Positions 14,005 to 46,878 of a stretch of 58,990 bases of DNA are shown piece by piece; positions within the stretch are counted from its first letter, which is position 1; every line of letters starts with the position of its first letter. Where the stretch lies: positions 1 through 58,990 of the forward strand of contig CALMTA010000148.1 in the NCBI GenBank assembly GCA_937872505.1, read 5' to 3'. Both the position numbers and the translations under genes were made by a program. This DNA is from an uncultured Neisseriaceae bacterium (lineage in GTDB: Bacteria > Pseudomonadota > Gammaproteobacteria > Burkholderiales > UBA11063). The notes beneath the pieces were generated by a model. The model saw only the letters and a list, made by a program, of their open reading frames with translations. It was not told the origin of the DNA and did not search any database.

Positions 14005-14641
14005 AGGTGTTCCTTCAGCATCTAATAGATTGTCTGATAGACATATAATATCTCTTGTAAAAGCTAAAAAACCATTGGCAAAAAGACAACTTAGGTTGGA
14101 AATTGCTGAATTAAATACTCTTTTAGCTTTGAACTGTTTTCCACTTGTTAAAGCAAGTGAGGTTGACTGTCAATGTTTAAACTTAGTGACATGTGATACT
14201 GTTATGAAATCTGTATATAAGCTGCCAAGTTATATTGGAGCAATACAGGTAATGACTATAGACGGGGGAAAAAACATTTCCTTAGTCGAAAGAAGTACAA
14301 AAGAATACTCTTTAAATCACTCAAGATTTGGACAGACCTCTCCAAAAGCCTATGTTTTAAATGACTATCTTTATCTTATAAACGCAGAATATAAAGCGGT
14401 AACAGTAATAGCTGATTTTGAAGATGAGGAGGAAGTAGAAAAACTAAATATGAAATGTATCACCTCTGTTAATGAGAGGTGTCTTTCAGCTATGGAGCTA
14501 AATATGACTGGAGAAACTATTGTTATTGATAGAGCAATAACTTTAGCTGTTACTGAACTTATAAAAGCATGGCAATCAGGCTCAGAGGATAATACAAATA
14601 ATGCGAAATCTAATGACGCAAGCAGAGAACAAGAAAACTAA
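13958..14641 (+). CDS. crAss-like ring/tail structural protein
   Basis: This 227-residue protein starts within the end of the nuclease gene (47-bp overlap). The N-terminus MTYSEIVSRVQIALGKGVPS followed by NRLSDRHIISLVKAKKPL, and the later ASEVDCQCLNLVTCDTVM then YKLPSYIG, match a conserved crAss-like virion protein in which a short Cys-x-Cys motif precedes a KLP segment. In crAss-like virions this type of protein belongs to the ring/adaptor assembly between portal and tail. The C-terminal 25 residues are Asn/Ser/Asp-rich and probably disordered. Family assignment rests on remembered sequence features, so the exact ring position is not assigned. Confidence 0.65.
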   Translation: MTYSEIVSRVQIALGKGVPSASNRLSDRHIISLVKAKKPLAKRQLRLEIAELNTLLALNCFPLVKASEVDCQCLNLVTCDTVMKSVYKLPSYIGAIQVMTIDGGKNISLVERSTKEYSLNHSRFGQTSPKAYVLNDYLYLINAEYKAVTVIADFEDEEEVEKLNMKCITSVNERCLSAMELNMTGETIVIDRAITLAVTELIKAWQSGSEDNTNNAKSNDASREQEN

Positions 14642-27360: not shown

Positions 27361-30300
27361 ATGGACGAAGATTTTTTGTTAAGCATATCTGGTGATACTA
27401 TTCCTGATTATCCAGCAGCAGGACCCATGCAAATTAATTCTGTGCCTATAGTTGAACCTACTACAGATAGTGCCCCTGTTACTTCTAAATCAGGAAATCA
27501 AGAAGGACTTGTTGGAGAAAGTAAACCATTTACTTTTTCAGATAGAATGTCTGAAATAGGTTCAAATATTTTCCCCGCTTTAGGGAGAGAGTTAATAGGA
27601 GGAATTGTAGATTTTGGTGGGGCTTTAAATCCAGGGGCTCAAATAGAGAGCTACATGAAAACAGGAGAATTTATTCCTGCTGTTACTCAATCAGGTAAAG
27701 CACAAATGAATGTTGTTGGGGCTTTTGGTGAAGGTGTAGTTACTACTATTGGTAATATTATGGGTATTACTCAAGATGGTCTTGAATACCTAAATGTTAT
27801 TGATGGAACAGAAGAAGAAAAAAATAATTTGGATAAGGTTTTTTCAAACTTTATTATAAACGAGGGTCAAGATTTTAGGGAAAATATGTCTGAAAGTGCA
27901 AGTGCACTTGTTGGAGGAACTACTCCTGAACTTCAAGAAGAAAGAAAAAATGAAAGTGTAGCTGTTATGCTTACACGACCTGAATTTTGGACAGAACAAG
28001 GAGCCCAAGGTGCAGGTTCTATGGCTTCTTTCTTTGCCCCAAGTATGTTTTTAGGTAAGGCAGTTAGTGCTCTTGCCAGAGTTTCTATGGGATTGTCAAA
28101 ATTTGGTAGAGTTGCATCTTATGCTGGAGGAGCGATAACATCAGCAACAGCAATGTCTACTATTGAAGCTGGTATGGAAAGCTCTGGAATGTATAAAAAG
28201 CAGTATGAAGATGTTTTTGTTAAAGAGTTTGATAAAATTACAAAAGCTTCCCCTGGGATAGACCCCGCTGAAGCTGAAAAACAAGCTCATGCTAAAGCTT
28301 TAGTAAGTGCTTCTAATGCTGCTTCTTATGTAGCCAGTGCAAATGTAGCTTTACTTGTACCTACAAATCTTTTAGAAACTTTACTTTTGTTTTCTCCTTT
28401 TAAAGGAACAACTAAAGCTGTAGGTACAGTTTTATGGAACACTGCTTCTGAAAGTTTTCAGGAAGGTATGCAAGGGGGTATAGAAAAAAATGCTGAAGAT
28501 AAATTTGAATACGGTAATGAAAAAGAATTAGGAGGAGCATGGAATAGAAATATTTCAGAGCCTTTCTTTACAATGACAGACGCATTAAAAGAAGGAGATA
28601 AAGACGCATGGTCTTCAGTGATTATTGGAGGAGTGATGGGAGGAGGTTCAAGTTCAATTTCTGAATTTCAAGAACATTCTAAATATAGAGCTTTAAAAGA
28701 AAGATTAGGAAATGCTTTATCCTCTGAATTGGATTATAAAGGTTTAATAAGAACTTTTGAAGACTTGTTTGAATATGAAACTACAACTGAAAATGGTGTT
28801 GAAAGTAGAAAGATAAAGGTTGATGGAAAAGGAGAGCCTATGCTAAATGTAGCAAAGGTAAAAGAGCATTTTCAAACTTTAGATGAGTTATCTAAACTTA
28901 TAAGTGAAGCAGATGTAACTGAAGACAGTGTATTGAAGTCCTTACTTCAACAAGAAATATTGTCTAAAGCTTTGTTTGCAGAATTACAATCAGGAACAGA
29001 CCCCTCTTCTATATTAGAATTGTTTGATGAAACAGCTTCTAAAGTAGGAAACAAGGGTAATGTAGAATATGGAGGGGAAATTATTTCCAAAAAAGATTTC
29101 AATGAAAAAAGAAGGCAGCAGTTAGAAGATTCAATGGAAGATTGGAGAAAGGCTAAATTTACTGGAAAGACATATAACATGACAGGAAGAGAAGTCTTTT
29201 CTTTGTTTGATAACATGGCTAAAACTACTGTGTTAAATAGGGAATTAGAAAGATTAGAGAAACTGAAAAAGGACATTAATCCAGGTGATGATAATTTGTA
29301 TACAAGAGCATTAAACGATAACATAGCAAAAGTAAACGTTGCCTTAGAAAAACTTAAACAATCACATGTTAAAATAACTTCTCCTGAAGGTATTGCTTTC
29401 AGAAAAACAGAAACAGAGATTGCTAAAGACTTTAACATAGTTTTAGATATAATAGACCGTCTTTACAAAAAAGGTAATGTAACAACAAACGACACAAAAA
29501 ATTTATCAAAACTTATAGAAGACCTAAATACTAAGGTAAGTGACCTTATTTCTAAAGAAGAAAATGAAGAAAGAAAAGTTATCCTTCAAGATTTAAAAAA
29601 TACTATTGAAAAATCTTTAAATGATACAGCTCAAGAGTTAAAAGAAAATACTTTTGCGTCTAAAATAAAAGAAGATACTGATACAAGAAAGGAAATATTA
29701 GACACTGCTAACAGTTTGTTAGGTCAAGACCTTACTTATGAGGAAGTAGAAACACAGTTTAAAGAGAAGTACAAAGATAAACCAGAATATTCTCCTCTTG
29801 TAGATGAGTATTTAAAACAGCTAAAAGAAAAGAAAGAAGCTCAAAGACTTAGAAAAGAAGCTGATGAAGCTGAAGAAATAGCTAACCCAGGGAAAAAAGC
29901 TAAAGAGGAAGCAAGGCGTTCTGTAGGACAAGTTATATCAGAAACAGCTACAAGTATTAGAAGAACACATATTGGAAACAATGCTATAGAAAAAGCCGCT
30001 TTAAAAGTTTTAAAAGACTGGGGGTATGATGAAAAGTTTGTAGCCGCTAATGATTTCATAGAATTTGAAGAGGTGTTTACTGCTCCTAACGGCACTGAAA
30101 AAACTTCTCCTGCCAGACTTCAGATACACAATGAAAATGCTTTTTCTATAACCACTTCTCAAGGAGTATTTTTCTATAATGGGAATGGTAAGTTAGAAGC
30201 TGTTTCTACTAATTCAAATGTAGCAGAACTTAAAGCTGAATTTGGAGATGACATATTGAATAAGATTAGTGAGTTATCAGGTATTACTTTAGAGAACTTA

Positions 30301-33300
30301 GAAAATCCTAAAATACTAAAAAAATCTGTAGTTGAAAATCAATCTATATTTTATCTTGTAACAGACAACAAACATTTAAGTATATACAAAACAGGATTTC
30401 GTTTACATGATTATGCAGATAATTCTGTAAAGGTAATTGACTTTGAAACTAAAGAAGTTTCTACATCAACAGAGGAAGAAAAAGGAAATGAAGAAAGTAA
30501 TGTAGGGGAAGATATAGAAAAATTTGCTAACAGGATTAAGAACGGTGAAACAATGACTTCACCAGAAGACTTACAGTTTTATGCGAATAATACAACTGAA
30601 ATTGAAGCTTTACTAAAAAAACAATCTACAGAAAATAAAGTAGAAAGTACAAAAGAAGATATAGAAAAAAGAAGACAAGAGGAGTTAAACAATAGAAGTA
30701 TAACTGAAAGGAATACTGATGGTAAGTGGGATGTTGCTGCTGAATACTTATTAAATAGTGGAACTAATTCCGTATTAAGTACTGATTATTATTTATTGGG
30801 AGTAGCTGGGGCATTTAGCAAATTAACAGGTATTATAGACGATATAAGAAATAAATACGCAAGAGAATTAGCGGATAATAATCTTGTGGACTTATCTAAC
30901 GCTATAAATTCTAACTTATTTAATACTATAAATAGCGAAATAAGAAATGAGATAGAAAAAATATATGGGAAAGAGGGGGCTTTATTATTTGACATCATAT
31001 CTAAATCGCCTAAAGGATTAACAGGCAGGGTAGGGAATGAAGTATCTTCTAAAATAGATAATTTAGAAGATAAAATTAATAGAGAAATCAATGCTAAATA
31101 TGATGCAGAACTAAAAGAAGCAGAAGCTTTATTAAAGGAACAATCTACAGAAAACAAATCTGAACAAACAGCTATTGAAAAAGAAGAGAAATCTACAGAG
31201 ATAAATGATTTAAGTATAGAAGTCACCTCTGAAAAATACAGTTCTAAACTGCTCAAAGATAACCCAGATAAACTATTTGTTTTTGGTGATAATGTTAAAA
31301 GAACAGGTAAAGGTGGACAAGCTGTAATTAGAGATGAACCTAATAGCATAGGAATAGCTACAAAATTGGAACCTAATAACGGCAAAAATGCTTTTATGTC
31401 TGATGATAATTTAGAGCAGAATAAAGCTGTTATAGATGAAGATATAAAAAAAATTAAAGAGAAGGCATCATTAGAAGGAAAAACAATTGTATTTCCTAAA
31501 GGAGGTCTTGGTACTGGGCTTGCCTCTCTTAAATGGAAGGCTCCTCAAACTTTTGAGTACTTAAATCAAAGGTTAAAAGAGGAGTTTAGATTTAACAACA
31601 CCTCTGGAGGAATAATAACAGTTGCAAGAGAGGCTAAGGAAGGCCTTAAAAAAGCAGACGAGGTACAACAAATTGTAGCAGAGATGGCTGAAGAGAAAGC
31701 TACAGAAAAAGAAGAAGCTGTTTCTAATAGTGAAATAACTGTGAAAGAAGATACAGATATTACACTAACCTCTGCTGCTGAGAATTTATATATGGATGAT
31801 AAGAGCTTCTGGTCTGAGTTTCAAGCATTTTTACCTGAAGAAAATATAGCCTATCTATCTGTAGAAGGTGACCGTACTTCTACAGGATTTGCAGAAGTAG
31901 TAACAGAAGTACCAAAATATCCTTTAAATATACAGCCTGATAAGTTACTCCCAGGAACAGTTATAACACTTAAAATTCCTGATAACTATAATGATGTACC
32001 TGTAAAAGAAGGTGCTGAAACATCTACTTTTGGAGACTTGTCAAAACGTAGAGGTCCTGAATGGACAAAAGAGAACATGCCTATAGGCATTTATTATGGA
32101 GATACTTTAATAGGCTATTTACATGTTCCTACATGGGTCTCTGATAGAGCAAGTGAAGATAATCGAGTTGAGGCTTTAAAGAAATTAAATAGTCTAAGAG
32201 GAAAATTTCTTGCTAAAGGCGGTGTTCCAATACCAGGAATGAAATTAGCTACAACTATTACTAAGAAAAATGATGGTATTGCTAATACGTTAGGTAAAAG
32301 TCAAGAGCTACTTACTGTCCATGAAGCTATGCACAAGACAAGTAAAGTTACTGCTTTTATGGTAGCCCCAAACAGAGATGGTTTTAGATTTTATGGTAAA
32401 AATCAAGAGGAGGTTTTAGGAAAAAATGCTTCTATTTTAATCCCTTACAGCTTACAAACACAGGATAAGAACAAGAATATGCCTGTTGTTTTAATACGTA
32501 TTACTGATGGAGTTGTTGATGGAGTGACTTTTCCAAGGTGGCGTGTACTTCCTATAACTAAATTAAAACAGGGACCACTTGTAAATTCTCCTTTGCATAC
32601 TTTAATGATTGAAACTTTAAAAAGGTTTTTCAGAAACTATATTGAAAGTTCTGAATTGTCTGAAATAAAAAATGTTGAAGATTTTGGAGAGTTTTTAAAA
32701 TTCTTTTTACCTGAGCATTCTATTGCTGGGGATAGGTCATTACGTGAGGAAATAAAAAGAATAGAAAATGAAGAGGGCTTATCAGCAGCAGATAGATTAG
32801 AAATGATAAGGCAAGTATTAGCACCATACTCACATCCTAATAACTTAACGTTTTCTATAGTAAATAACGATATATATTTCACTAAAGGAAATAATAGTAA
32901 ATTAGGAAGCAGTGACTCTACTATCATTAAGATAAGCCCTTCTTTCTTTGAAAACATGGGTAATAGTGCTGAGTTGAATTCAATGTACACCAAGTTAATG
33001 GGTATATTAGAAGAAGAGTTCAATTCTATACAGGAATTTAATGTAAATAAATCTGCTTTTGAGAAAGGTAAAAAAATGCCTTTATTAGAAAGTATAGATG
33101 CTGAAAAAAGTACACAAAGGGATTATTCAGAGATAGTTGACCAACTACACCAAACAATCTTCAAATCAACAGCTTTTGTTAATGAAGAAAATGAAACTAT
33201 ACACTCTGTAATAATTCAGCCTATTATACAGTTTGACATGAATGCTGTATTAACACCCTCTGTTGAAGTAACTGTTACTGAAGATAATACTACTTTAAGC

Positions 33301-36300
33301 TTTGAACAACTAAAAGAAAAGTATATAGAGGGGTTACTACCAAAAGTAGTAGAACTTTCTGAGGATGAAAAGACTTATGTAGAGGCTAATCCTAAAGAAG
33401 GTCAAATACCTGAAGTATTTATGAGAGTAAGTACTTTTAAATCTAAAAGAGATGCTTTTAATTTAGAAGCTCTTCCTGATAGAGGCTTAACAAGGCAACA
33501 AGCGAGAGGTACTGCTATAGACACTTTATTTAGAGATTTATTTGAGGGTAAAGTTGATGTAGATAATAGAACCGAGGTAGAAACAGCTTTTCACTCCTAT
33601 ATAGCATTAGAGTTTCGGGGTCTTTCGATTCCTACAATTAAAGATAGCTTAATAGATGACCTAATAGGTATTTTTAAAAGTATAAAAAAATCATTAGACG
33701 AAAAAGGGTTAGTGTATTCAGCAAATACTAATTCATTATACGGAAGAATAGATGGTGAGTTAATTGCAGGTACAGCAGACATAATAGCCTATGACCCAAA
33801 GACTGGAACTTATTACATCTTAGACTTTAAAACTTCAAGTAGAAGTAGACCCAAAGACTACACTAATACAAGAGGTATTTATAAACAATCAGACCTTATA
33901 CAATTAAATATATACAGGTCATTACTTGCTGAAATTCTTAACATACCCCAAGAGAAGATATTATTGGGTGTATTTCCTGTTTATATAGGTGAAGATGAGA
34001 GGTATATAAATAGTGCAACTCTTGTTGAGACAACCAATGATTTAATGCCTGGGGTTTTAACTGTTTCTACAGAAAATACAATAGAACAAATTTTAGGCTT
34101 AGACACAACTGTTGAAGATACGCCTGAAATAGACACTGCTACTTTAATGGAAGATGTTGTTCCATCTGATGTAAATATAGACCCACAAGATACTGCTGAA
34201 AATGTTGAAGTTCCTACTGAAAGTGAGACTTTAGAAACTATTCCATCTCTGGAACCAGAGGTTTCTGATATTGAGTGGAATGAGTTAAATACGGATATAT
34301 ACAATATTTTCCAAGGGTTAGATGTATCAGGTATAGTAGAGAATATTGCTGAACTTACTTATGAGCAGTTAGCCAGTATTCCAGGAGAATTTTCTGAGAA
34401 GGTTGATTATATATACAAGATAGCCTCTTCAGAAGGACCTCCAACACAAGATATTTCATTACCTTCATTACAACATTTGAGTACTCCAAAAACAGATGCT
34501 TTAAGAAAGAAATTTGAAAAGGATAATAACTATATTTCAGACCTTGACGTAAATGATTTCCAAGAAGTAATTTATGACGTACATCATTTTGTTTTAAGTA
34601 AAATGCTTGTTGAAGGGGAAGAAAAAATGGAGTTTCTGCCTGCTTTTAAATTGTATATGAAACAATTAAAAGCAGGTGCAGAGATAACAGATAAAGAAAA
34701 GAAGGAGAAGATAAAAAAAATACTAAAAAGTATACAAGAAACAGGAACTCGTATTTACAGTGCTAAAGGGGTTTATAAAAGTAAAGTTCAAAGGCTATCC
34801 AATCTAACAAGGTCTTTGATGACTTTGTTAGGTGTAAATGAACAGAAGTTAGCAGAGGTATTAAAAAGTTCCGATTTTAGTAGTTATAATGTAGTACAAA
34901 GAAATCAGTTAGAACACTATAAAGTTCTTCAATCAGAAATAGCTTTGGTAAAAACTGATATAGAAACCCATGAAAAAACAATAGCCACATATATAGAAAG
35001 GCTAAAAGATTTAGGATATGAATATAGTTTAAGAGTTACTCACGTTTTGAAAAACCTTAACACTATACAGTTTATTGTAAAAAGAATGATTTCTGATGTA
35101 GATAAGCAATTAAAAGCAGAAGAGGAAGAAAATGATGTTTATGATGTAGAAGGTGAACAAATTGATGGTATAGATGAAAACAGTGCTGCAACTGAAGGTG
35201 GAATGGATGAAACAGATGATTCAGGACATACTTGGGACCAAGGAGTTGGGGAAAAGAGTTTAAGAATTTCTATGCCAAAATATTTGAGAATGAATTTGTC
35301 TGGCATTAAAAGAATGGAAGAAAAAGAAACTGAAGATGGTACTACTATTGTTAACGCTAAAAACTTTTTGAATAAGGACTCTATAGTGAGTCCTGAAGAA
35401 GTTTACTATACTTTAAAAACTCTTTTATCAGGTACTTCAAACTCTTTAGAGGAAATTTTAAGTATTTTAGGGAAATACTCCACAACTTATTTGTGGTTGC
35501 CACAAGTAATCACTATGTTAGAAACTAACAAAAAGTTTGCTACTCAATTTGCAAGCTCAATGCCTTCTCATGCCCTAAATATGACTGGCGTTAGTGTACA
35601 AAAGAATAAAACAAAGAGTGGAACAACTTACTCAATAAAAGTATACAACTCAAACTCTAATGACGCAGTAAAATCCACAAAAGAAAAATGGATGTATGAA
35701 GCTGCAAGGTCTAAAGTTTTTTATGTTAAAGATGGGCAACTTGTTGTTGATAAAAATAGACTTTTTGAAACCATTCAAGGGTTAAAGAATATTGCTAATA
35801 CTATTCAAGGTGGTGGTGTATCTTCTTCTATTCCAAGTTTAAGTGCTTCTGGAACTGATTTTACTAAGATAATAAAAAAGACATCTGTTGGAACTAAGAG
35901 TATAAAATCTTTAACCACTGATGGTATTAACAATAATATTGAAGTTACTGTAAATGATTTAGAAACTTATTTTGGGCTTACTAAAAATTCTTCTCTTAGG
36001 TTAGCTACAAAAGATACCATACCATTTGAGAGTATTACAGAACAAGGTGTACAGTTTTCTATTAGTTATAATGTACTTGTTAATAATACTAACGTAGAAA
36101 AGAAACAAGTAATAACTCTGAAAAAATCTGGAGATAAGTTCTTATTTAGTTCTAAACCTGTTAGTGAAAAAACCTCTGTACAAATATCTGAATTATCAGA
36201 GCTACTAAGTAATGTAGGAATATCAATGAGTTATAGGGCACTTGAAAAAATAGTGAACAAAGGCATCTCATCAGGAAGGTATACTAATAATATATTAAAA

Positions 36301-39300
36301 CTGTTTACTGACAACAACGGTGTATTTAATATTCTAATACAAGAGCTTGACAAAATATACAAAGGCTTACCTTCAAATACTTCTTCTACAACTGCTCCAA
36401 TAGAATTAAGTGTTGTAGACAGCTTTATAGAACAGACTTTTGCAACAACTTTAGCCAAAGAACATATAGAACATAGCCCTTCCTTAGAAGTTATTACAAG
36501 TAATTTCCGTGAGAGCAGAAAAGCAATACATACTCACGTTCTACGTAAAATGATTACTGATAGGATAATGTATTTAAAAGAAGAATTGGAAAAAGATGTA
36601 GATAAAAGGCAATTGATAAATCAGATTAAGCACTCTATTTTTAGCTCTGATAGTTTATACATGGATTTGCTTTTAGAGGAAACTGAGGAAACTGTACTTT
36701 TAGATTTTAAAGATAAGTTTGGTATAGACCACTTATCCTTAAATGTTTTGAAGCAGACTTTAAAGGATTACTACAACACTAAAAAACTTAAAGATTTAAC
36801 ACCTATTGAACAAGAGATTGTAGAGTTGGCTTATTATACAAGTAATAATGTGGATTCTAAAAAAATCTCTTCAGGCTCTTTGAAAGGTAAAACAGTAAGA
36901 ATAGCTTCCTATTTAGTTCCTAAAATGAGTGATAAGGATACTGAGCTTGCTACTCAAGGTATAGCTTATGTTTTTAAATCTGGTAATAGTGATTTTTCTA
37001 CGAAAGAAGAAGATGTAAATCAGGCTTATACTCTGTATGTAGAAAGGGTTATTGTACCTGAAATAAAAAGGATACTACATACTAACAGGTCAAAACTTAA
37101 TTTTAACTCTAAGTATCTTTTGGGTGGAAAAGTATTTAACAATACACCTATACTGAACGCTTTAAGCATTAAAGGAATTTCTTTTTTAAATATACTAAAA
37201 AGAGCCTCTGAAGATAGAACAAAAACAATTGATGAGCTTACAAAAGAGATTGTGGAACTTTATTCTTCAGAGTTAAGAGCAGCCGCTAAAAAAATTATAA
37301 CTACTGAAACAGTTAGAAGGCTTCAACTATGGGAAAAAGGTAAACTTTTAGATATAGACGAAAGTGGTAAAATAACAGGTATTAGGTTTTTAGATGAGTC
37401 ATATCTTTATCGTGTAAAAGACCAAAGAGGTCATAGAGAAACAGCAGAAAGAATAGCTTTTGAATATACTGTTAATTCTCTTATAAATAGTTCTGAACAA
37501 CAGATGCTTTTTATAGGCGACTTAGCAGACAAATTTGATTTGAAAAATTCTGGTCTGAAAGCTAAACTTGTGTCTGCAATAAATGGGGAAAGCATTTTAA
37601 CTGATGCTGAAGCCTCATTAATCTCTAAATCTATATACAGTGTTTCAGCGGGTAAAAGGTTAGCAGACCTAATTGCTCCTGGGACTAAAGCTGCTGAAAG
37701 TGAGAAGAACTATTTTTATTACATGCCTATCAAAGATATTATAGGTATGTCCTCTTCAATAGAAGTGATAACTCAGTACTTAGATGGTAAAAAATATAAT
37801 GAAGAAGAACATAAACAACAAGGTTCAGACTACTTGAAAAACTTCCCAAATTCTGCTGCCTTCTTTAATATGGAAACCACTGATGGTTTTGAGTTTGGTA
37901 CTTGGAGAGAGGGTATTTATATACGTATGCAAGAAGGGCTTCTTTCTAATGAAGAGGCAAACGTATTAACAGAGGCTATTGCTAATAAAGTTAGTTGGAA
38001 AGACTTTAATGAAGAAGAGAAAAAACTTGCTGGAATACTCCTTAATAAAGTTCATCAACCTGATAAGCCTGTATACACAGGATTAGTTTATGAAAATGTT
38101 GAAGGAGAAGACTATGGAGTATTTAGAGAGGTCTATGTAAAAAGTTCTATAGCTTATCTTATTCCTCAACTTACTTCAGGAATGACTCTTGACCCTTTAA
38201 GAATTTTCATGGAAAAACTTGAAGATAACCTATTAGATAAAACTACTACTTCAGAGTTTTTTGGCTCTGGGGGTGTGAGGGTTCCTTTTAGTTCTGCTGT
38301 GAAATTAGGGCAAAAAAATGAAACATTAGAGGTGTTTGATGAAAATGCTAATGTTAGACAAGACCTTTTAAGTCTTATAGATAGCCCAGAAAAGTTAGAG
38401 GCGTTTAAAGAAAAATATCTTATACAAGTTCCAAGAACTCACCTAAGAAGGCAGCAAGAAGTTCCTTATAAATCTAAAAAGAAAGACTCAAGTAAAAATT
38501 TAAGGGGTTCACAAGAAGCTAAATTTATTTTTGCTGACTTGCTTTCTATTAACAGGATTACAAATAAATATGATGTAGAGATACCCTTTGAATTTAGAGG
38601 TGCACAGTATAACCCAAAGCAACTGTATGATATTTATTTAGATACCTATAAGAAAATTTACGAAGAACAGTTTCAAGCATTATTGAATGAGGAGTTAAAA
38701 ATAGACACATATCCTACTTTAGAAGAAGCGTTAAGTCTTCTTGATGAAGCTAAGATAGATACTAAAGATATTGTTACACTGTATGATGCTGTAAAAGCAT
38801 TAAAATCTAACAACATTTCTTTCTATAAGCATGTTGATTTAGCTGATTCTGTAAGTAAAGATATTAGTCCTTTAATGAACTTGTTGAGGGCTGAAGCAGA
38901 GTCAAGACAAGGGTATAGTTTAACTGCAAGGAACATACTTAAATTTAATGGAAAATCTATAATGGACTTAAATTACCCTCTGTGGGCAAGTTCACACTCT
39001 GATAAATTTGAGGCTCTTTTGAATGCAGTAGTAAGTAATAGGGTGTATAAAATAATTTTCCCAGGATATTCTTATGTTTTAACTCCAGATATTTTAGGAA
39101 AAAAACTTACTAATGTAGAAGCTACAAAAGAAGTACTTGACAAATATGCTGATAAAATTATTTGGACAAAACCTGAATATGCTAAACAGCAAAATATTAA
39201 AGGGCACGATATTGTAAATGGAAAAGTACAACTTGACCAAGTAATTGTACCATCTAAATTTGTAGGAAATGATGGTATGATTATTGATTTGTTTGAAGGT

Positions 39301-42300
39301 ATAGAAGAAGGTGTAGGAAACAACTGGGTAAAATTTGAAGGTGGAAAAATGATTTTAAGAACGGAAAATCTACCTAAAGAGTTGTTAAACCTTTTTGGGT
39401 TTAGGATACCTACTTCTGGACTTATGTCAATGGCAGGAATTGAAATTGTAGGTTTTTTGCATTATTCAGTAGGAGATATAGTTATAGCTCCAAGGGAATT
39501 TATTGCAAGGATGGGGTCTGACTTTGACATTGATAAGTTGTATAGCTACATGAAAAATCATTATTATGATGCTGCTACTAAATCTTTAAAGACTTTTAGT
39601 AGTGCAGATGAATATGTAAACTATCATTTAGAGATATTTAAGTCTAATCTTTTAGAAAAACAAAAAGCTAAAATAGAAAAGACAATTAGGTATCAAAATC
39701 AACAAACAAAGGGTGGACTATCAGAAGAGGACATAGAAGAAGAGACAGAAGATAACTTTAAAATATATACTGAAACAGAATTAGACGTAGTTTTAGAAAA
39801 AGCAAAACTAAAGTTTTACAACGAGTACTATAAAGGGACATTAAAAGATAAGATATTTGATATTCACTTATCTGTTATGAAAAACCCTGACCCTATCGTC
39901 TTTAAAAATATAATGTTTCCGTTGACCACAAAAATTGCAGAAGATAGTGCAACTTTAATCTATGATGAGTCTAACAAGAATATACCTACAGTAATAGCTG
40001 TAGGAAATAAAGAGTATCAAGTATATGATGCTTTTACTCCTTTATCAAGCCTTTTTCAGATAAGTGAACGTACAGCGGCAAATGCCTTCAAAACAGGTGT
40101 GGGTATAAAAGCACTAAATAGTACTTTCCATGTTAGTATTCAGCAAGCAATAGCTAAATCTAACAGACAAATAAACCTTCTTGTAGAAGAGAAAGATGAT
40201 GTTGTTAGTCTTGTTACAAGTATGTTTGGGATAGTTTCTAATGGGGAATTAGGAAGGTCAAGGACATTAGGAGTAAGTCCTGATGGAGTAACTGTTGCTG
40301 ATGGAGAACACTTTATTAGCTTTGTCAATTCAGAGGAAGTACAAACTATGGTGGATGGTAAGAAACTTGACATTTCTGGTAGGGTTAATGATACACACTT
40401 AACTTTTGCTTATAGAAGGGCTTTAACTTTACTTGGTTTTTACACTGTCAAATTAGACAACGGTAAAGTTGTAAGGATAGGGGACTTAGTTTCTATGCAA
40501 CCTGTGATAAGAGAGTTTATTAATAGAGTATCAGGATTAAGAGGTCAGCTTACAGATTTTGTATCTAATGATGTAAAAGTAGTTATTCAAGAATTGATGG
40601 ATGAACTTACTTTAGCTCCTTCTGAAGCTTTAAAAGAACAGGGCTCTCAAGACCGTATGTTTGAGGCTTTACCGAAAAGCTTTTCAGATATACTTAAAAA
40701 TGGTTTAGATGCAGAAAAGGCTTTTCAAGCAGAAATTCTAAAACATTTTGAAACTTTAAATGCGATAGGTAATAAACTTGGAAAAGTGCAGTTAGTAGCA
40801 AATTCTGACAGTAAAGTGTTAGACAAGTCTATTTTTACCAATATAGAAAAAGCTGATGAAGTTGCAGACCTACTAAATCCAGTTATATATGGGGGTAAAA
40901 AGATGTATGTAGATAATATCTCCTCTATAATAGGAGAGTTTCATGTAGATAGAAAACCTGAACTAATGACTGTAGAGCAAAAACTAAACAGTTTAAACTC
41001 GCAAGGTAAACAGTATTACTTCTTTAAAACAATCAGAGGAGTAGAAAAAGGTAAAGAAATCACTGCTAATATTTATATAAACCCATACACCTTAAATGGT
41101 CTTGCAACAGTATTTTCACTTGGAACAGGTGTAAATATTTTTTCTTCTTTGTTTCCTTATCAAGGTGAGCAATTTGAAAGGACACTTCAACAGTTTAAAA
41201 GTCTAAGAACTTCTGATGAAAGTGTAAATGCTAAAGCCCTATTCAGGAGATTTTTGTGGAGAGAGATGACTAAACATTTAATTTTGAACTCTAAAGTTCA
41301 GAAAATATTCCCTAATAACTCTGAATTAAGCGAGATTTCAAGTACTTTTTCCTATAAAGAAAGTCCTGACCCAAATATTATTAGGCAAAACGCATACGGA
41401 TATGATATTTCTGATAGTTCAAAAGAGTTAAACTCTGTATTTTCTATATTTAAAGCCTATCTAAACACCACTAATCAGGGTGCTATTAATATGGCTACTT
41501 TATTTCAATTCTATTTAAAAGGCTATTCAAGTATAACTTCATACAGTGAAGCTGATGCAAGCTATATTGATACACCTTCTAAGATAATGAACCAATCTTT
41601 TGGTATATCAGAAAATACAGCAGAAAACTTATTGAACCCTAACTCTGGTGTAACTGCTATTTTAGTAAACAAAGGACAAGAGATAACTTCTGAATATGTC
41701 TATGTAGTTGGTACCAATAAAGAGTTAATCAGAGCAAAGGTTGTTAAGAAAGAAGAAGTTTCTAATGATGAAGCTGAAATGGCTTCCCAGGCAAAAAAAT
41801 TAGGTTTAAAAAGTGTAGTTCCTGTAAAAGACAAATATGATGTTCTTGTAGTTTCAGACCCTAAAGTTATTCCTTCTGGAATGTTAGATAGAACAAGGTT
41901 TTTATCCGTTGATGATGTTACTAATAATACAACGTTTCAAAATGGTAATACTATTATTAAGTATAATGATGCTGCTATTGGAATACAAAGACTTTTGTAT
42001 AATCTTGTTGTAAATGAAGATGACTTAAAGACTTTTCGTATAAATTCAGGTCAAGCAACAGCTAATGGAACAGAAGAAACAGACGTTTTACTGCAAAAAA
42101 TGTATGATATAGTTAACAGGGGAGCAGACAAATCACTTGCTGATAGGTTATCATTTAAAATAGATGGTGTGTTTGTTTCTCCAAGCACAGCTGGTAGAAA
42201 TGACTTACACAAAGCTTTAATTAGGCTGTATGGTATACAAAAATTCTTAAACCCTGAGTACACACCTGATAATACATTTGTTAGACTGTTTGGTCTTGAA

Positions 42301-45300
42301 AACAGTGAAGAAAATGTAAAGAAGGTTAAAGCAGAAATAAGGAGAATAACAGGTCTAAATATAGATTTTAGAACTACTCCTCAAACACCTATACCAAATT
42401 TTACATTTCAAGGAAACTTATGGAGGGCGGGGTTAAATAAAAAAGCTATTAGTGGTGGAGGTAATATCACCAGTCTAAGCATTAAGAAAGCAATAACTAA
42501 TGGTTTGAGAGTCCTTCCTTATAGTTCTTTAAAGGCAAATTTATCTGGAAACACACAATATGAAGTTTTAGGATTTACAACTATAAACGTTGATGGCGTT
42601 TTATATAAAGTAGAGCCTTTATCTAATAGTATGTACACATTAGATGAAATAGAGCAAGCTACAAATCTAACAAAAAGAGCAATTTTAGGTAATAATTATA
42701 CACCAGAAAGTACCCCTGATAAGACTTTAGCTGACCTATTAAAGTCTTGGAAAGATAGAGAACAGGTGTTTAAAATTACTCCTTTTAATTTAGAAGAAGA
42801 ATATTTTAACTTATGGGATAAGTGGGTAAAATCAAATGAGGATAATCTAACAAAATTAGAGGCTCTGAAAAATGAATTAAAGTTAGAGACAGGAGGTTAC
42901 AGGTATATATCTGATAGACTTCACAGCAAAAAGGATGTAAACACTGGAAGAATTATTACTAAACTACTGAACACATATTTCCCACAAGGAGATGAGAAAC
43001 TTGGTATTTTAAGTGCTGACTATACCACAGAAGAGGAGATAGCTAATGCTGCATTTGGCGTAATAGAGTTTCAACAAAGAAAAGAAAATTTAGCTTCTGG
43101 AACAGTTAGAGACAATAAGTATATCTTCCTTAGAAGTCAATTACCTGACAATATTTCAGAGGAAGTTATGAAAAGAGATGAGTCTAAAGTTAAAGGCGGT
43201 TATTATTTTGACTTAGAAATAGTAGGGGACTATTATTCCTATGATAAAATTTTAGCTGAGGATGGTAAAGGTGTAGATATAATTATTGTAGATACAGTAG
43301 AACAAGCTCATCAGCAACATAATGCTTATGTCAGAGTATCTCCTCATGGTACAAGACAGTTTTCAGTAAACAACAAAATTTCCAACTATGAATTTGTAGA
43401 CTCGGCTATAGATGAGCATAGAAAAATAATGTTTATTGACGATTATGGAAATGACACATATAACACATACACTTCTGAAAATCAAGAACAGTATGATACA
43501 AAAGTTATTTTGTCAGGTAGTACAGAGCATAAAAAACTTATAAACGACTACGCTATATTTAAAACAGGTATAGTTGAGGTATCTATTGGAGGAGTTACAG
43601 AGCTTATTTATATACTTCCTGTTACAGGGAAAATGCAAGAAGATGTTGAAGCTCTTTCTACATTGTATTCTACAGTAGAGTCCTTTGGAGACAAAACATT
43701 CTTGTTTAAGTTTGACTCTATTACACCAAGCACTGTTAAAGGTGTAAACTCAGACTATGTTTTTAATCTTTTGAGTTCTTTACCATTTAAATCTAACATG
43801 TTGTATCCTTATGATGAAAGTTCACGTATGAGGAATACAACTATTGAAGATGTAAATGGTGCTGAAGTAACTTTTACTGAAGTGCTTACTCCTTTAAATG
43901 TAGAAGAAGGTGAAGTTAAAAATGTCAAACTTACTGAAAAGTATATAACTCCTAATGTAGATGTAGTTGTTGAACCTTTTGTTGCTGGACATCTTATTAA
44001 AAATACAACATCTAAAAATGTTCGTGTAAACCCAATATTTCCTATTAATTTTGTACAAACAATAACGGAAGAAGTGAATGGCAAAAAGATTTATAGGAAA
44101 ATATTTAGACCTATTGAAGGGACTTTAAAGGAGCATTTAGTAAAAGTTGCTGAAGAGACTGCCGTCAAGATAGTTAATTCAAATAAAGGGTCTAAAAACA
44201 TTACTTTAGGAATAGTAAGCAAAGGTATTTCAGAGATGTTGGAAGAAATAGTTACTCACGAAGGGTCTAAACTAAATACTTTTGAATTTGATGGTAAAAC
44301 TCTTCAGTCTCACATGGATGACATTATGGATGTCTTTATTGAAGCAATGGTTAATCATTTGAAAACCAGTGGTGTAAGCGTATCTTCTGCAATAGTTTTA
44401 GCCCAAACAGGCTTTTCTGAAAGTTCAGTTAAAGCGTTAACTAAACATTTTAAGACTTCAATACCTGTAACGGTAATAGGTTCTGCATTTTATGAACACC
44501 TTGTAGAAAGTAAATCAAGGGATAAAAACAGGAACAAACAATTCTTCAAAAAGAGATTTGGTATAAACCCTGTATATAAGTCTAAATCTTTTACTTCTTA
44601 CTTTAAAGAACTCTTAGACAGTAATTCTCCTATTGTTAGAAAATATCCATTACTTCAAGAACGTGGAAGATGGTCTTTTGACATGCACACAAATGGTAAG
44701 GAAAGCTTGATATTGTGGAACAACACTATAAAATCAGAGAAAGAAGATTTCTTTGCTCTTAGCTTTATGAATATGATTGTAGACACTAATGTAGTTACAA
44801 CAATTAACGATTTAGGTGAAGAGGTTCCGTTATTGTTTAATGACGAAGTTCTTACTGTCCAAAGATTGGCGATGTACTTAGTGCTTTCTTCAATGTTAAA
44901 ATCTGGTGCCACCCAAGGGGCTAAAGAATACTCTTCTTATATACCACCTGCATACTTGAAAGAGATGGGTATTTCTGATGAACTTCTTAAAATAGATTTC
45001 TCTGACCCTAAAATTTTAGGTAAGGTTACAAATGGTGTAACAGAGTTTGTGAGAAAGTTTATTCAGACCTATCCAAAATATGCAAAACGTATTCCTGTTG
45101 AGTCTGATGGAAGTTTTCCTGCACTCACACAAGCTAATACTAAAACTTTAACAGGGTTAAAAACTTTTGGAGTTACTGCTGAACAGTTAGAAACAACGTT
45201 TAATGTAAAAAGCTTTTCTGGACCTCCAAAGTTTATGTCTGTATATAATCCAGAGAAATCAGAATGGCTGTTATTTGAACAAGTAGAGGGTTCATCTGAC

Positions 45301-46878
45301 CAACAAATTGTTACTTATGAAAAGATAGAAAACTTTGCAAAGAAAAAAATTGCTATGTACAATAGTGATTTAAATACACGTAAAAAAGGAATGTTTGTAC
45401 AAGCAAAAAAAGCAAAGAACTTACATTCCTACGGTATTGATTTAGTCAATAATCAGGTTAACTATAAAATTTTAATAGACCAGTTACATTTTGGTTCTAC
45501 TAATGCTTATTTTAAAACACAAGCAGAGTATCTAAGGGCTAAAAATTTAGTTGTAGAATTTGAAGTTCTTAACGACATTAAAACTGAAGATGGAAGAACT
45601 ATAGAAGCCCAGGCAGTTAGGAAAGGAGGTATATATACAATACAATTAAACAAGGTTGTGTTTGATAATTTAAACAGGTCAGGTCAATTTGAAGAGATTG
45701 AACGTATATTATTACATGAGTTAGGGCACATTGATGATTTACTATCATTACAGTCATATATTAACTTGAACACTGATGGTACAACATCTATAAAAACAAC
45801 TGGTTCAGGTTCAAGAAAAAAAGGACAGGAAGCTCTAAAAGAGTTAGAAGCTATAATGCTTGAATTGAAAATAGAAGCCAAAAGAAATCCAAACCTTATG
45901 GCAGTTTTAAAAAGAAAGCATTTAGATAATATCTATGAGTTTATGACTGAGCTAAGAACAGATAAGGAGTTTCAAGCAGTTCTTGCTGGCATAAAAAGAA
46001 CTAAGGCTATTAGTTATTTAGATGCTATAGTAAACGCTTTAGTAAAAGCATTAGCAGCAATAAAATCTGTACTTAATGGTTATCCTATTGAGCAAAACTC
46101 TATGCTTTATCAGTCTATGTACTATCTTGAAGTATTAAGAACAGTGAGTGCACCTTCTAAGAAAAATGAGAATGTTGTGTTTAAAAGAGTAGACGCTGCT
46201 GGAACTGTTTACTATGTAACTTATATAAATCAAGATAATTCAGCTGTACCAATTAAAATTACTACAGAAAATGGTCAAGAGGTAACTTTATTGCCTAATG
46301 AAAAGTTGTCTGACTTTATAGTTAGAAACAATCTTGTAGAGCATATCGAAAAAGCACCAGTACAAAGAACCCTTTCACAGCCAGCGTTCAGTAATTCTTC
46401 TACTATTATAGATACTTTTGGAATTAATGCAAGTAATCCTAAAGACGTTGTTACAGAAAGGGTAGTAATATTGATAGGATACACTCCAGAAGAGATTTCT
46501 GCTATTAAAGCCAAAAGAGTTACACACTTTAATACATACAAGGATGACCTCTTTTTTGAAAGTTTTAGTATGTCTAAAGAAGAGTTTTTAGAAAAATCGC
46601 TTATACTTATAGACTATGCTGGTGGATATAATCATAAGTTCAGTGAAAATTTTGAAACAGAGGTTGCGTATATTGGCGTAAAGGCTAATCATAAAGTTAA
46701 TGACCTTGAATTAGGGGCTATTGAAGGAGTATTCTCACCCTCTGATTCAATTTTAACATCTTTAGCATCAGGGGTTATGCAAGTATCAGATTATTTGCGA
46801 ACTTTGAGTAAAATTAATGTGGAGCTATTTAGAAATCTTGTAGCTTCAGGAGTAATTAACAAAACAGAATGTAAATAA
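27361..46878 (+). CDS. 6505-residue virion RNA polymerase polyprotein (DFDID, crAss-like/YonO-type) with nuclease, GDN-type, SLOG-like and zincin domains
   Basis: One uninterrupted frame of 19.5 kb. Modules from the N-terminus: (1) Gly/Ala-rich membrane-active helices, about 217-440 (SMASFFAPSMFLGKAVSALA, ANVALLVPTNLLETLLLF); (2) coiled-coil linkers to about 850; (3) a KLFVFGDN...GKGGQAVIRDEPNSIGIATK domain, about 1290-1425; (4) a PD-(D/E)XK nuclease, about 2050-2215, with Asp2140, Asp2155-Phe-Lys2157 and Gln2181; (5) acidic linkers, about 2255-2310 and 2580-2625; (6) the polymerase core, about 3690-4260, with GSQEAK at 3716-3721, GFRIPTSGLMSMAGIE, and catalytic MGSDFDIDKLY (Asp4054, 4056, 4058), then FKTGVGIKAL; (7) a possible SLOG-like domain, about 5608-5725 (IVLAQTGFSESSVKAL); (8) HELGH at 6119-6123. 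In crAss-like phages this polymerase is ejected with the DNA and transcribes early genes. The size far exceeds the roughly 2200-residue phi14:2 enzyme, so processing is plausible. Confidence 0.88.
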   Translation: MDEDFLLSISGDTIPDYPAAGPMQINSVPIVEPTTDSAPVTSKSGNQEGLVGESKPFTFSDRMSEIGSNIFPALGRELIGGIVDFGGALNPGAQIESYMKTGEFIPAVTQSGKAQMNVVGAFGEGVVTTIGNIMGITQDGLEYLNVIDGTEEEKNNLDKVFSNFIINEGQDFRENMSESASALVGGTTPELQEERKNESVAVMLTRPEFWTEQGAQGAGSMASFFAPSMFLGKAVSALARVSMGLSKFGRVASYAGGAITSATAMSTIEAGMESSGMYKKQYEDVFVKEFDKITKASPGIDPAEAEKQAHAKALVSASNAASYVASANVALLVPTNLLETLLLFSPFKGTTKAVGTVLWNTASESFQEGMQGGIEKNAEDKFEYGNEKELGGAWNRNISEPFFTMTDALKEGDKDAWSSVIIGGVMGGGSSSISEFQEHSKYRALKERLGNALSSELDYKGLIRTFEDLFEYETTTENGVESRKIKVDGKGEPMLNVAKVKEHFQTLDELSKLISEADVTEDSVLKSLLQQEILSKALFAELQSGTDPSSILELFDETASKVGNKGNVEYGGEIISKKDFNEKRRQQLEDSMEDWRKAKFTGKTYNMTGREVFSLFDNMAKTTVLNRELERLEKLKKDINPGDDNLYTRALNDNIAKVNVALEKLKQSHVKITSPEGIAFRKTETEIAKDFNIVLDIIDRLYKKGNVTTNDTKNLSKLIEDLNTKVSDLISKEENEERKVILQDLKNTIEKSLNDTAQELKENTFASKIKEDTDTRKEILDTANSLLGQDLTYEEVETQFKEKYKDKPEYSPLVDEYLKQLKEKKEAQRLRKEADEAEEIANPGKKAKEEARRSVGQVISETATSIRRTHIGNNAIEKAALKVLKDWGYDEKFVAANDFIEFEEVFTAPNGTEKTSPARLQIHNENAFSITTSQGVFFYNGNGKLEAVSTNSNVAELKAEFGDDILNKISELSGITLENLENPKILKKSVVENQSIFYLVTDNKHLSIYKTGFRLHDYADNSVKVIDFETKEVSTSTEEEKGNEESNVGEDIEKFANRIKNGETMTSPEDLQFYANNTTEIEALLKKQSTENKVESTKEDIEKRRQEELNNRSITERNTDGKWDVAAEYLLNSGTNSVLSTDYYLLGVAGAFSKLTGIIDDIRNKYARELADNNLVDLSNAINSNLFNTINSEIRNEIEKIYGKEGALLFDIISKSPKGLTGRVGNEVSSKIDNLEDKINREINAKYDAELKEAEALLKEQSTENKSEQTAIEKEEKSTEINDLSIEVTSEKYSSKLLKDNPDKLFVFGDNVKRTGKGGQAVIRDEPNSIGIATKLEPNNGKNAFMSDDNLEQNKAVIDEDIKKIKEKASLEGKTIVFPKGGLGTGLASLKWKAPQTFEYLNQRLKEEFRFNNTSGGIITVAREAKEGLKKADEVQQIVAEMAEEKATEKEEAVSNSEITVKEDTDITLTSAAENLYMDDKSFWSEFQAFLPEENIAYLSVEGDRTSTGFAEVVTEVPKYPLNIQPDKLLPGTVITLKIPDNYNDVPVKEGAETSTFGDLSKRRGPEWTKENMPIGIYYGDTLIGYLHVPTWVSDRASEDNRVEALKKLNSLRGKFLAKGGVPIPGMKLATTITKKNDGIANTLGKSQELLTVHEAMHKTSKVTAFMVAPNRDGFRFYGKNQEEVLGKNASILIPYSLQTQDKNKNMPVVLIRITDGVVDGVTFPRWRVLPITKLKQGPLVNSPLHTLMIETLKRFFRNYIESSELSEIKNVEDFGEFLKFFLPEHSIAGDRSLREEIKRIENEEGLSAADRLEMIRQVLAPYSHPNNLTFSIVNNDIYFTKGNNSKLGSSDSTIIKISPSFFENMGNSAELNSMYTKLMGILEEEFNSIQEFNVNKSAFEKGKKMPLLESIDAEKSTQRDYSEIVDQLHQTIFKSTAFVNEENETIHSVIIQPIIQFDMNAVLTPSVEVTVTEDNTTLSFEQLKEKYIEGLLPKVVELSEDEKTYVEANPKEGQIPEVFMRVSTFKSKRDAFNLEALPDRGLTRQQARGTAIDTLFRDLFEGKVDVDNRTEVETAFHSYIALEFRGLSIPTIKDSLIDDLIGIFKSIKKSLDEKGLVYSANTNSLYGRIDGELIAGTADIIAYDPKTGTYYILDFKTSSRSRPKDYTNTRGIYKQSDLIQLNIYRSLLAEILNIPQEKILLGVFPVYIGEDERYINSATLVETTNDLMPGVLTVSTENTIEQILGLDTTVEDTPEIDTATLMEDVVPSDVNIDPQDTAENVEVPTESETLETIPSLEPEVSDIEWNELNTDIYNIFQGLDVSGIVENIAELTYEQLASIPGEFSEKVDYIYKIASSEGPPTQDISLPSLQHLSTPKTDALRKKFEKDNNYISDLDVNDFQEVIYDVHHFVLSKMLVEGEEKMEFLPAFKLYMKQLKAGAEITDKEKKEKIKKILKSIQETGTRIYSAKGVYKSKVQRLSNLTRSLMTLLGVNEQKLAEVLKSSDFSSYNVVQRNQLEHYKVLQSEIALVKTDIETHEKTIATYIERLKDLGYEYSLRVTHVLKNLNTIQFIVKRMISDVDKQLKAEEEENDVYDVEGEQIDGIDENSAATEGGMDETDDSGHTWDQGVGEKSLRISMPKYLRMNLSGIKRMEEKETEDGTTIVNAKNFLNKDSIVSPEEVYYTLKTLLSGTSNSLEEILSILGKYSTTYLWLPQVITMLETNKKFATQFASSMPSHALNMTGVSVQKNKTKSGTTYSIKVYNSNSNDAVKSTKEKWMYEAARSKVFYVKDGQLVVDKNRLFETIQGLKNIANTIQGGGVSSSIPSLSASGTDFTKIIKKTSVGTKSIKSLTTDGINNNIEVTVNDLETYFGLTKNSSLRLATKDTIPFESITEQGVQFSISYNVLVNNTNVEKKQVITLKKSGDKFLFSSKPVSEKTSVQISELSELLSNVGISMSYRALEKIVNKGISSGRYTNNILKLFTDNNGVFNILIQELDKIYKGLPSNTSSTTAPIELSVVDSFIEQTFATTLAKEHIEHSPSLEVITSNFRESRKAIHTHVLRKMITDRIMYLKEELEKDVDKRQLINQIKHSIFSSDSLYMDLLLEETEETVLLDFKDKFGIDHLSLNVLKQTLKDYYNTKKLKDLTPIEQEIVELAYYTSNNVDSKKISSGSLKGKTVRIASYLVPKMSDKDTELATQGIAYVFKSGNSDFSTKEEDVNQAYTLYVERVIVPEIKRILHTNRSKLNFNSKYLLGGKVFNNTPILNALSIKGISFLNILKRASEDRTKTIDELTKEIVELYSSELRAAAKKIITTETVRRLQLWEKGKLLDIDESGKITGIRFLDESYLYRVKDQRGHRETAERIAFEYTVNSLINSSEQQMLFIGDLADKFDLKNSGLKAKLVSAINGESILTDAEASLISKSIYSVSAGKRLADLIAPGTKAAESEKNYFYYMPIKDIIGMSSSIEVITQYLDGKKYNEEEHKQQGSDYLKNFPNSAAFFNMETTDGFEFGTWREGIYIRMQEGLLSNEEANVLTEAIANKVSWKDFNEEEKKLAGILLNKVHQPDKPVYTGLVYENVEGEDYGVFREVYVKSSIAYLIPQLTSGMTLDPLRIFMEKLEDNLLDKTTTSEFFGSGGVRVPFSSAVKLGQKNETLEVFDENANVRQDLLSLIDSPEKLEAFKEKYLIQVPRTHLRRQQEVPYKSKKKDSSKNLRGSQEAKFIFADLLSINRITNKYDVEIPFEFRGAQYNPKQLYDIYLDTYKKIYEEQFQALLNEELKIDTYPTLEEALSLLDEAKIDTKDIVTLYDAVKALKSNNISFYKHVDLADSVSKDISPLMNLLRAEAESRQGYSLTARNILKFNGKSIMDLNYPLWASSHSDKFEALLNAVVSNRVYKIIFPGYSYVLTPDILGKKLTNVEATKEVLDKYADKIIWTKPEYAKQQNIKGHDIVNGKVQLDQVIVPSKFVGNDGMIIDLFEGIEEGVGNNWVKFEGGKMILRTENLPKELLNLFGFRIPTSGLMSMAGIEIVGFLHYSVGDIVIAPREFIARMGSDFDIDKLYSYMKNHYYDAATKSLKTFSSADEYVNYHLEIFKSNLLEKQKAKIEKTIRYQNQQTKGGLSEEDIEEETEDNFKIYTETELDVVLEKAKLKFYNEYYKGTLKDKIFDIHLSVMKNPDPIVFKNIMFPLTTKIAEDSATLIYDESNKNIPTVIAVGNKEYQVYDAFTPLSSLFQISERTAANAFKTGVGIKALNSTFHVSIQQAIAKSNRQINLLVEEKDDVVSLVTSMFGIVSNGELGRSRTLGVSPDGVTVADGEHFISFVNSEEVQTMVDGKKLDISGRVNDTHLTFAYRRALTLLGFYTVKLDNGKVVRIGDLVSMQPVIREFINRVSGLRGQLTDFVSNDVKVVIQELMDELTLAPSEALKEQGSQDRMFEALPKSFSDILKNGLDAEKAFQAEILKHFETLNAIGNKLGKVQLVANSDSKVLDKSIFTNIEKADEVADLLNPVIYGGKKMYVDNISSIIGEFHVDRKPELMTVEQKLNSLNSQGKQYYFFKTIRGVEKGKEITANIYINPYTLNGLATVFSLGTGVNIFSSLFPYQGEQFERTLQQFKSLRTSDESVNAKALFRRFLWREMTKHLILNSKVQKIFPNNSELSEISSTFSYKESPDPNIIRQNAYGYDISDSSKELNSVFSIFKAYLNTTNQGAINMATLFQFYLKGYSSITSYSEADASYIDTPSKIMNQSFGISENTAENLLNPNSGVTAILVNKGQEITSEYVYVVGTNKELIRAKVVKKEEVSNDEAEMASQAKKLGLKSVVPVKDKYDVLVVSDPKVIPSGMLDRTRFLSVDDVTNNTTFQNGNTIIKYNDAAIGIQRLLYNLVVNEDDLKTFRINSGQATANGTEETDVLLQKMYDIVNRGADKSLADRLSFKIDGVFVSPSTAGRNDLHKALIRLYGIQKFLNPEYTPDNTFVRLFGLENSEENVKKVKAEIRRITGLNIDFRTTPQTPIPNFTFQGNLWRAGLNKKAISGGGNITSLSIKKAITNGLRVLPYSSLKANLSGNTQYEVLGFTTINVDGVLYKVEPLSNSMYTLDEIEQATNLTKRAILGNNYTPESTPDKTLADLLKSWKDREQVFKITPFNLEEEYFNLWDKWVKSNEDNLTKLEALKNELKLETGGYRYISDRLHSKKDVNTGRIITKLLNTYFPQGDEKLGILSADYTTEEEIANAAFGVIEFQQRKENLASGTVRDNKYIFLRSQLPDNISEEVMKRDESKVKGGYYFDLEIVGDYYSYDKILAEDGKGVDIIIVDTVEQAHQQHNAYVRVSPHGTRQFSVNNKISNYEFVDSAIDEHRKIMFIDDYGNDTYNTYTSENQEQYDTKVILSGSTEHKKLINDYAIFKTGIVEVSIGGVTELIYILPVTGKMQEDVEALSTLYSTVESFGDKTFLFKFDSITPSTVKGVNSDYVFNLLSSLPFKSNMLYPYDESSRMRNTTIEDVNGAEVTFTEVLTPLNVEEGEVKNVKLTEKYITPNVDVVVEPFVAGHLIKNTTSKNVRVNPIFPINFVQTITEEVNGKKIYRKIFRPIEGTLKEHLVKVAEETAVKIVNSNKGSKNITLGIVSKGISEMLEEIVTHEGSKLNTFEFDGKTLQSHMDDIMDVFIEAMVNHLKTSGVSVSSAIVLAQTGFSESSVKALTKHFKTSIPVTVIGSAFYEHLVESKSRDKNRNKQFFKKRFGINPVYKSKSFTSYFKELLDSNSPIVRKYPLLQERGRWSFDMHTNGKESLILWNNTIKSEKEDFFALSFMNMIVDTNVVTTINDLGEEVPLLFNDEVLTVQRLAMYLVLSSMLKSGATQGAKEYSSYIPPAYLKEMGISDELLKIDFSDPKILGKVTNGVTEFVRKFIQTYPKYAKRIPVESDGSFPALTQANTKTLTGLKTFGVTAEQLETTFNVKSFSGPPKFMSVYNPEKSEWLLFEQVEGSSDQQIVTYEKIENFAKKKIAMYNSDLNTRKKGMFVQAKKAKNLHSYGIDLVNNQVNYKILIDQLHFGSTNAYFKTQAEYLRAKNLVVEFEVLNDIKTEDGRTIEAQAVRKGGIYTIQLNKVVFDNLNRSGQFEEIERILLHELGHIDDLLSLQSYINLNTDGTTSIKTTGSGSRKKGQEALKELEAIMLELKIEAKRNPNLMAVLKRKHLDNIYEFMTELRTDKEFQAVLAGIKRTKAISYLDAIVNALVKALAAIKSVLNGYPIEQNSMLYQSMYYLEVLRTVSAPSKKNENVVFKRVDAAGTVYYVTYINQDNSAVPIKITTENGQEVTLLPNEKLSDFIVRNNLVEHIEKAPVQRTLSQPAFSNSSTIIDTFGINASNPKDVVTERVVILIGYTPEEISAIKAKRVTHFNTYKDDLFFESFSMSKEEFLEKSLILIDYAGGYNHKFSENFETEVAYIGVKANHKVNDLELGAIEGVFSPSDSILTSLASGVMQVSDYLRTLSKINVELFRNLVASGVINKTECK
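30604..31158 (+). repeat. Near-identical 36-bp direct repeats flanking a roughly 480-bp insert inside the polymerase giant
   Basis: Positions 30604-30639 encode EALLKKQSTENK and 31123-31158 encode EALLKEQSTENK, with 32 of 36 bases identical. Between them lies a helical module beginning DIEKRRQEEL and ending INAKYDAELKEA. The repeats bracket the module in frame, which suggests a domain inserted or exchanged through a duplicated linker. Confidence 0.6.

Follow-up and report, generated by a model that had tools for sequence, protein, structure and literature searches.

What is encoded by the very long open frame at 27361..46878 of this contig, and can its product be a virion RNA polymerase (vRNAP) that enters the host as one chain? 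The window, i.e., the whole stretch of 58,990 nucleotides that we analysed, is an entire contig from a 2.16-Mb, 316-contig assembly. The initial annotation had read the frame as a crAss-like polymerase inside a much larger multidomain protein. Below we consider in turn the integrity of the frame, the polymerase itself, the parts joined to it and the way in which the product might be delivered.

Integrity of the open frame

The frame (27361..46878, +) starts with ATG, contains no internal stop and specifies a giant vRNAP fusion protein of 6505 aa, in agreement with the initial annotation. At the base composition of the window, the probability of a chance open frame of 6505 codons is ~1e-252, and across the same interval each of the five other frames is interrupted by 216-874 stops. 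Codon usage, compared per 500 codons, resembles that of the flanking late genes along the whole frame (r 0.81-0.91, as against ~0.2 off-frame); because it is so uniform, there is no sign of a joining of unrelated DNA.

These data bear on the possibility that separate genes were joined into one frame during assembly, which the initial annotation had itself named as a point to check. The sequence does come from a single metagenome contig, and a near-identical second copy was not found. However, not only is codon usage uniform, but dozens of independent contigs and the isolate FpV4 share the arrangement, and an independent relative reaches 6557 aa, so that we consider such an artefact extremely unlikely.

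A two-barrel polymerase core

The sequence motifs lie where they had been placed: GFRIPTSGLMSMAGIE is found at residue 4013 of the 6505-aa protein, MGSDFDIDKLY begins at residue 4051, and FKTGVGIKAL (40087..40116, +), which sequence comparison pairs with AGGKSGVGITAN of phi14:2 gp66, begins at 4243. By position and by the alignment described below, the catalytic motif is D4054-F-D4056-I-D4058 (39520..39534, +). A single-sequence BLASTP of the window against phi14:2 gp66 yielded 57.8 bits; since 50 shuffles gave at most 29.3 bits, the motif match is not due to chance.

PHROG 16227 and tblastn matched the middle of the chain to giant virion proteins of the Flavobacterium phages FpV4/Fpv3 (26% identity), and BLASTP showed a polymerase block (residues 2612-4667; 35194..41361, +) collinear with FpV4 gp32 and with the relatives L020 and L032 (E 1e-91 to 1e-117). 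A seven-row alignment of the core was used to find IMG/VR loci, after which an alignment of 55 sequences was built. Besides other residues, this alignment shows as invariant the DxDID motif, R4015-x-P4017 (39403..39411, +) and three lysines upstream of the DxDxD barrel, K3569, K3594 and K3648 (38065..38304, +). We take the RxP element to resemble the RxP motif of beta', and the lysines may have a role in the beta-like barrel.

A profile independent of both proteins under comparison, made from 54 viral relatives with the window and phi14:2 left out, matches phi14:2 gp66 (E 2.6e-208) as well as residues 3076-4507 of the window protein (36586..40881, +; E 6.7e-170). A second profile (A2; 55 rows, the window being one of them and phi14:2 not included) had 6VR4 as its sole significant match among PDB chains (E 1e-207). 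Profiles alone were effective in this respect, as a PDB search with the window segment as a single sequence returned no match. Window peptides by themselves retrieved no relatives in scans of viral sequences and genome contigs. When 398 genomes of the phylum were searched with a profile, no match lay outside the window's own assembly.

An AlphaFold model of residues 3257-4456 (pLDDT 80, pTM 0.84) also had the phi14:2 vRNAP (6VR4) as its sole significant match in the PDB (Foldseek 1.2e-28; Z 26.3 over 844 residues). Next in rank came further polymerases with two barrels, namely QDE-1, RDR2 and the P23-45 type. This structural comparison had been set beforehand, lack of resemblance to double-psi-barrel polymerases counting against the initial annotation; because the model matches the polymerase fold of 6VR4, the reading came through it. 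Judging from profile and predicted fold, residues ~3076-4507 are thus a two-barrel RNA polymerase of the phi14:2 gp66 type, with the DxDxD motif in its conserved context, a core collinear with that type and the polymerase fold in one chain. To this extent the initial annotation of a crAss-like polymerase within a much larger multidomain chain is borne out.

It was nevertheless incomplete, as it comprised neither a gp67-type fusion nor the zincin-like C-terminal domain, the nuclease-like domain, the DUF7831 domain and the shuffling of modules among relatives, which are dealt with in the following sections.

Gene fusion and neighbouring genes

In phi14:2, the gene for the virion protein gp67 immediately precedes that for the catalytic RNAP, and the annotation of gp65-67 rests on virion MS/MS. 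In the window protein, a gp67-like region with a hydrophobic stretch at 329-347, detected by hydropathy, occupies residues 192-447 (27934..28701, +; BLASTP E 5e-6), with similarity extending to about residue 458. By hhalign, the N-terminus matches a gp67-type profile at 96.8% and the separate upstream genes of unfused relatives at 91.7%. The likeness to gp67 is weak. A plain profile search gave no match between the two, and iteration from gp67 alone did not recruit the fused proteins.

The relatives connect the two states. Where the polymerase is unfused, a separate gene lies directly upstream of it (mostly ~1550-2200 aa where complete), and a profile of these genes recognises the N-terminal ends of the fused proteins in other relatives (hhalign 99.7%). 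Of the 87 distinct complete relatives among the matches listed, 70 have an N-terminal half that is long and of the fused type. On the core tree, where the window groups with FpV4 and L020-like phages (SH-aLRT 99), the protein changed between the fused and the separate state at least eight times, and in some relatives the gp65-like part is also found within the giant chain. In the window it is the next gene (46881..52382, +), which encodes a homologue of phi14:2 gp65 (RNA polymerase-associated protein; 1833 aa; BLASTP E 2.6e-5, iterated profile E 2.4e-135); 124 of 128 loci, again among the matches listed, have such a homologue after the giant gene. Sequence comparison therefore identifies the 6505-aa protein as a gene fusion, gp67-like at its N-terminus and gp66-like in its middle, with a gp65-like gene next to it.

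Just upstream, a 725-aa gene (25180..27357, +) has the position of FpV4 gp31 (732 aa); since the copy in the window escaped a profile of its own family, the correspondence is one of position. The block also encodes a crAss-type tail ring protein 2 (13958..14641, +; Pfam PF25702, E 1.2e-13) and a 1594-aa virion structural protein homologous to FpV4 gp29 (16777..21561, +; phrog_15100, E 1.2e-41; BLASTP). The tail ring protein and the gp67-gp66-gp65 order are features of Crassvirales; no crAss-type major capsid protein, TerL or portal was seen among the scanned proteins of the window, a 59-kb fragment as compared with the 88 kb of FpV4.

Two further genes were observed in the window. One, in the structural block (14654-15514), matches the core domain of class II aminoacyl-tRNA synthetases (PF00152, E 1.6e-8) and phrog_29758 but has no sequence match in the PDB, and the other encodes a deoxynucleotide monophosphate kinase (54347-55162, -; PF21448, E 1e-9).

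This setting is relevant to two alternatives. The polymerase might be produced in the course of infection and never enter the virion, much as P23-45 also has a separate non-virion two-barrel polymerase (PMC10770324). Yet the window gene stands in a late structural block together with its gp65/gp67 partners, and its nearest characterised homologues are virion proteins, which makes this improbable. The protein might instead be the tape measure of the tail, to which a polymerase has become joined, given that P23-45 gp96 likewise combines similar size, a metallopeptidase and a polymerase in one chain. But the window polymerase is mid-chain rather than N-terminal, its fold resembles phi14:2 (Z 26.3) more than gp96 (Z 8.3), and a crAss short-tail ring protein is encoded nearby; we give this alternative very little credence.

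Size among relatives

The polymerase of phi14:2, gp66, has 2180 aa and is indeed about a third of the length of the window protein, as initially noted. The accompanying claim of exceptional size did not hold. Among the IMG/VR matches listed, from which all counts of relatives were taken, the 87 distinct complete relatives have a median length of 4301 aa; 63 of them reach 4000 aa and six reach 5000 aa. At least one is longer than the window protein, namely L155 (IMG/VR 3300034062_002410), which with L179 amounts to 6557 aa after addition of the 5' end (134 + 6423 aa). Given this relative, and a review that already describes crAss-like RNAPs of "up to ~6000 aa" (PMC10136315), there is nothing new in the size by itself: the window protein is at the top of the known range in a phage group with giant polymerases already on record.

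Besides the window, its assembly contains at least three more distinct contigs with a crAss-like polymerase, G000:C137, C53 and C97 (L010-L013, L016, L017), C53 and C97 being only 43% identical where they overlap. Their presence may reflect either many phages of one host or the binning of phage contigs. In the polymerase from C53 (L017), DFDID is at residue 4706, deeper than in the window protein, and the contig ends ~34 residues later; the full-length product would be very large.

Additional modules and the C-terminal domain

A DUF7831 domain of unknown function occupies residues 1292-1403 (31234..31569, +; Pfam PF25176, E 2.6e-37); it is N-terminal here and near the C-terminus in L076 and L166. 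Residues 2036-2230 (33466..34050, +) contain a PD-(D/E)XK nuclease-like domain (GTAD...DFKT...QLNIY), for which Pfam PDDEXK_1 gives E 0.0026 with the window segment, below the cut-off, and 4.5e-5, above it, with the homologue from G003:C136. An earlier paper reports that large transcription proteins encoded by crAss-like phages can contain PDDEXK domains (PMC7886860). Between the polymerase and the C-terminal domain lies an insert of ~1070 aa (residues 4668-5740; 41362..44580, +) with no match in Pfam, NCBIfam or among the relatives.

The C-terminal domain (residues 5741-6253; 44581..46119, +), defined by a profile common to many relatives, bears the zincin signature H6119-E6120-x-x-H6123 + E6193. 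In 45 divergent sequences, E6120, H6123 and E6193 are its sole invariant residues, although several relatives have no HExxH in this domain. In the relatives the domain gives only weak Pfam matches, to metallopeptidases of the SprT/M76/M78 type. The domain model is moderate (pTM 0.45) and has no significant fold match (Foldseek E 0.05 at best); its top rows are the C-terminal region of the N4 vRNAP (Z 6.3), then zinc metalloproteases (Z 5-6), possibly because of a common arrangement. In L063 the domain is split by ~1200 residues (2080-2379, 3590-3874), as if a cassette had been inserted inside it.

Other relatives carry other cassettes, before or after the polymerase and at differing places: among the matches listed, NADAR (8 proteins), ART-PolyVal (7), an SF1-type helicase (14) and an AlkB-like domain (3). 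In the window, several unrelated enzyme domains thus share one chain beside virion genes (RNAP, DUF7831, PDDEXK-like and zincin-like, the last two mostly motif-based). As far as domain matches can tell, this module set and its shuffled positions are features of polyvalent proteins, and the internal zincin is a candidate processing enzyme. In the part of the literature covered, mostly titles and abstracts, we found no prior description of crAss together with NADAR, polyvalent or metallopeptidase; with such partial coverage the case for novelty is weak, and the add-on enzyme modules, differing from phage to phage, look little described so far.

Delivery and processing

We consider it very probable that the gene encodes a crAss-like vRNAP fused in a giant chain with extra domains, packed in the virion and injected to start early transcription. 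The observed or computed basis for this consists of the open frame, the core with its sequence and predicted fold, the gp67-like N-terminus, the gp65-like gene that follows, the late structural genes nearby and the zincin signature; we infer packaging from context and relatives. By analogy with phi14:2 and with crAss001, for which MS detected gp47, gp49 and gp50 in virions (PMC10172136), the protein most likely travels as cargo in the head and is ejected along with the DNA.

According to this scheme, the protein would be synthesised late, packaged in the head and passed down the tail into the host along with the DNA, for which it would have to unfold at least in part. There the polymerase would refold and transcribe the first phage genes without the host polymerase. 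The DUF7831, nuclease-like and zincin domains would be delivered as passengers, the zincin either trimming the chain before or after delivery or targeting host proteins.

The internal zincin makes processing plausible. On this view, the protein would be a self-processing polyprotein from which the C-terminal zincin releases an ejection protein, the polymerase and accessory enzymes, either ahead of packaging or once the chain has been delivered. The invariance of E6120, H6123 and E6193 would fit this, as would the presence of a zincin-like domain adjoining the polymerase in many relatives. Iyer et al. (PMC5512222) proposed that zincins process polyvalent proteins and found N4-like vRNAP modules nearly always fused to a metallopeptidase, and the C-terminal part of the N4 vRNAP is the best structural neighbour of the zincin model, albeit with a Z of 6.3 only. 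On the other hand, P23-45 gp96 (5002 aa) stays full-sized in virions despite its metallopeptidase domain (PMC10770324), HExxH is missing from several relatives and no cleavage site is known. We regard self-processing as possible but doubtful, with roughly one chance in three; the term polyprotein in the initial annotation was too strong.

A wider reading of the giant vRNAP is somewhat less doubtful, albeit still tentative. In environmental crAss-like phages, a gp67-type ejection part, the two-barrel RNAP and the zincin would form a chassis for lineage-specific, swappable cassettes (NADAR, ADP-ribosyltransferase, SF1 helicase, AlkB-like, PD-(D/E)XK, DUF7831). These cassettes would enter together with the genome and be set free by the zincin, so as to disable the host or gain control of it. 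If so, polymerase and zincin were combined independently of the N4 vRNAPs.

The locus shows how far the fusion of crAss-like transcription proteins extends, up to a ~730-kDa chain with a narrow tail to pass, and that crAss-like virion polymerases carry lineage-specific enzyme cassettes. It makes testable whether giant cargo arrives whole and refolds or is cleaved by a protease of its own, as well as any action of the cassettes against host defences.

Comparison with known systems

The closest characterised system is that of phi14:2 gp65, gp66 (PDB 6VR4) and gp67, with the same polymerase family, by profile and fold, and the same gp67-gp66-gp65 order; there, however, gp67 is a separate gene, whereas the window has both in one chain with extra modules. 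The nearest isolate homologue, FpV4/Fpv3 gp32 (L040; 4287 aa, "virion structural protein"), has a collinear polymerase block, a C-terminal zincin-like domain (HEVIH) and the same neighbouring genes, but is ~2200 aa shorter; the window adds the DUF7831 and nuclease-like domains and the 1070-aa insert. L155 is equally giant, with a collinear polymerase and similar lengths on either side of the DFDID motif, but carries NADAR, an AAA_30/UvrD-type helicase and weak ART matches instead of DUF7831.

P23-45 gp96, a tape-measure-fused RNAP, is likewise giant, with a two-barrel polymerase and membrane and metallopeptidase parts, but belongs to a long-tailed phage and has a distant, N-terminal polymerase; an RNAP of this type was rejected for the window, where the polymerase is at residues 3076-4507. 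In the polyvalent proteins, such as N4 gp50 vRNAP, a polymerase, a zincin and other enzymes are similarly combined in a virion-delivered chain; these features were described for N4 vRNAPs with crAss-like phages unmentioned (Iyer et al. 2017, PMC5512222). The N4 polymerase is T7-like and its fold is unrelated to that of the window RNAP, so that an N4-type identity was rejected in favour of the two-barrel fold.
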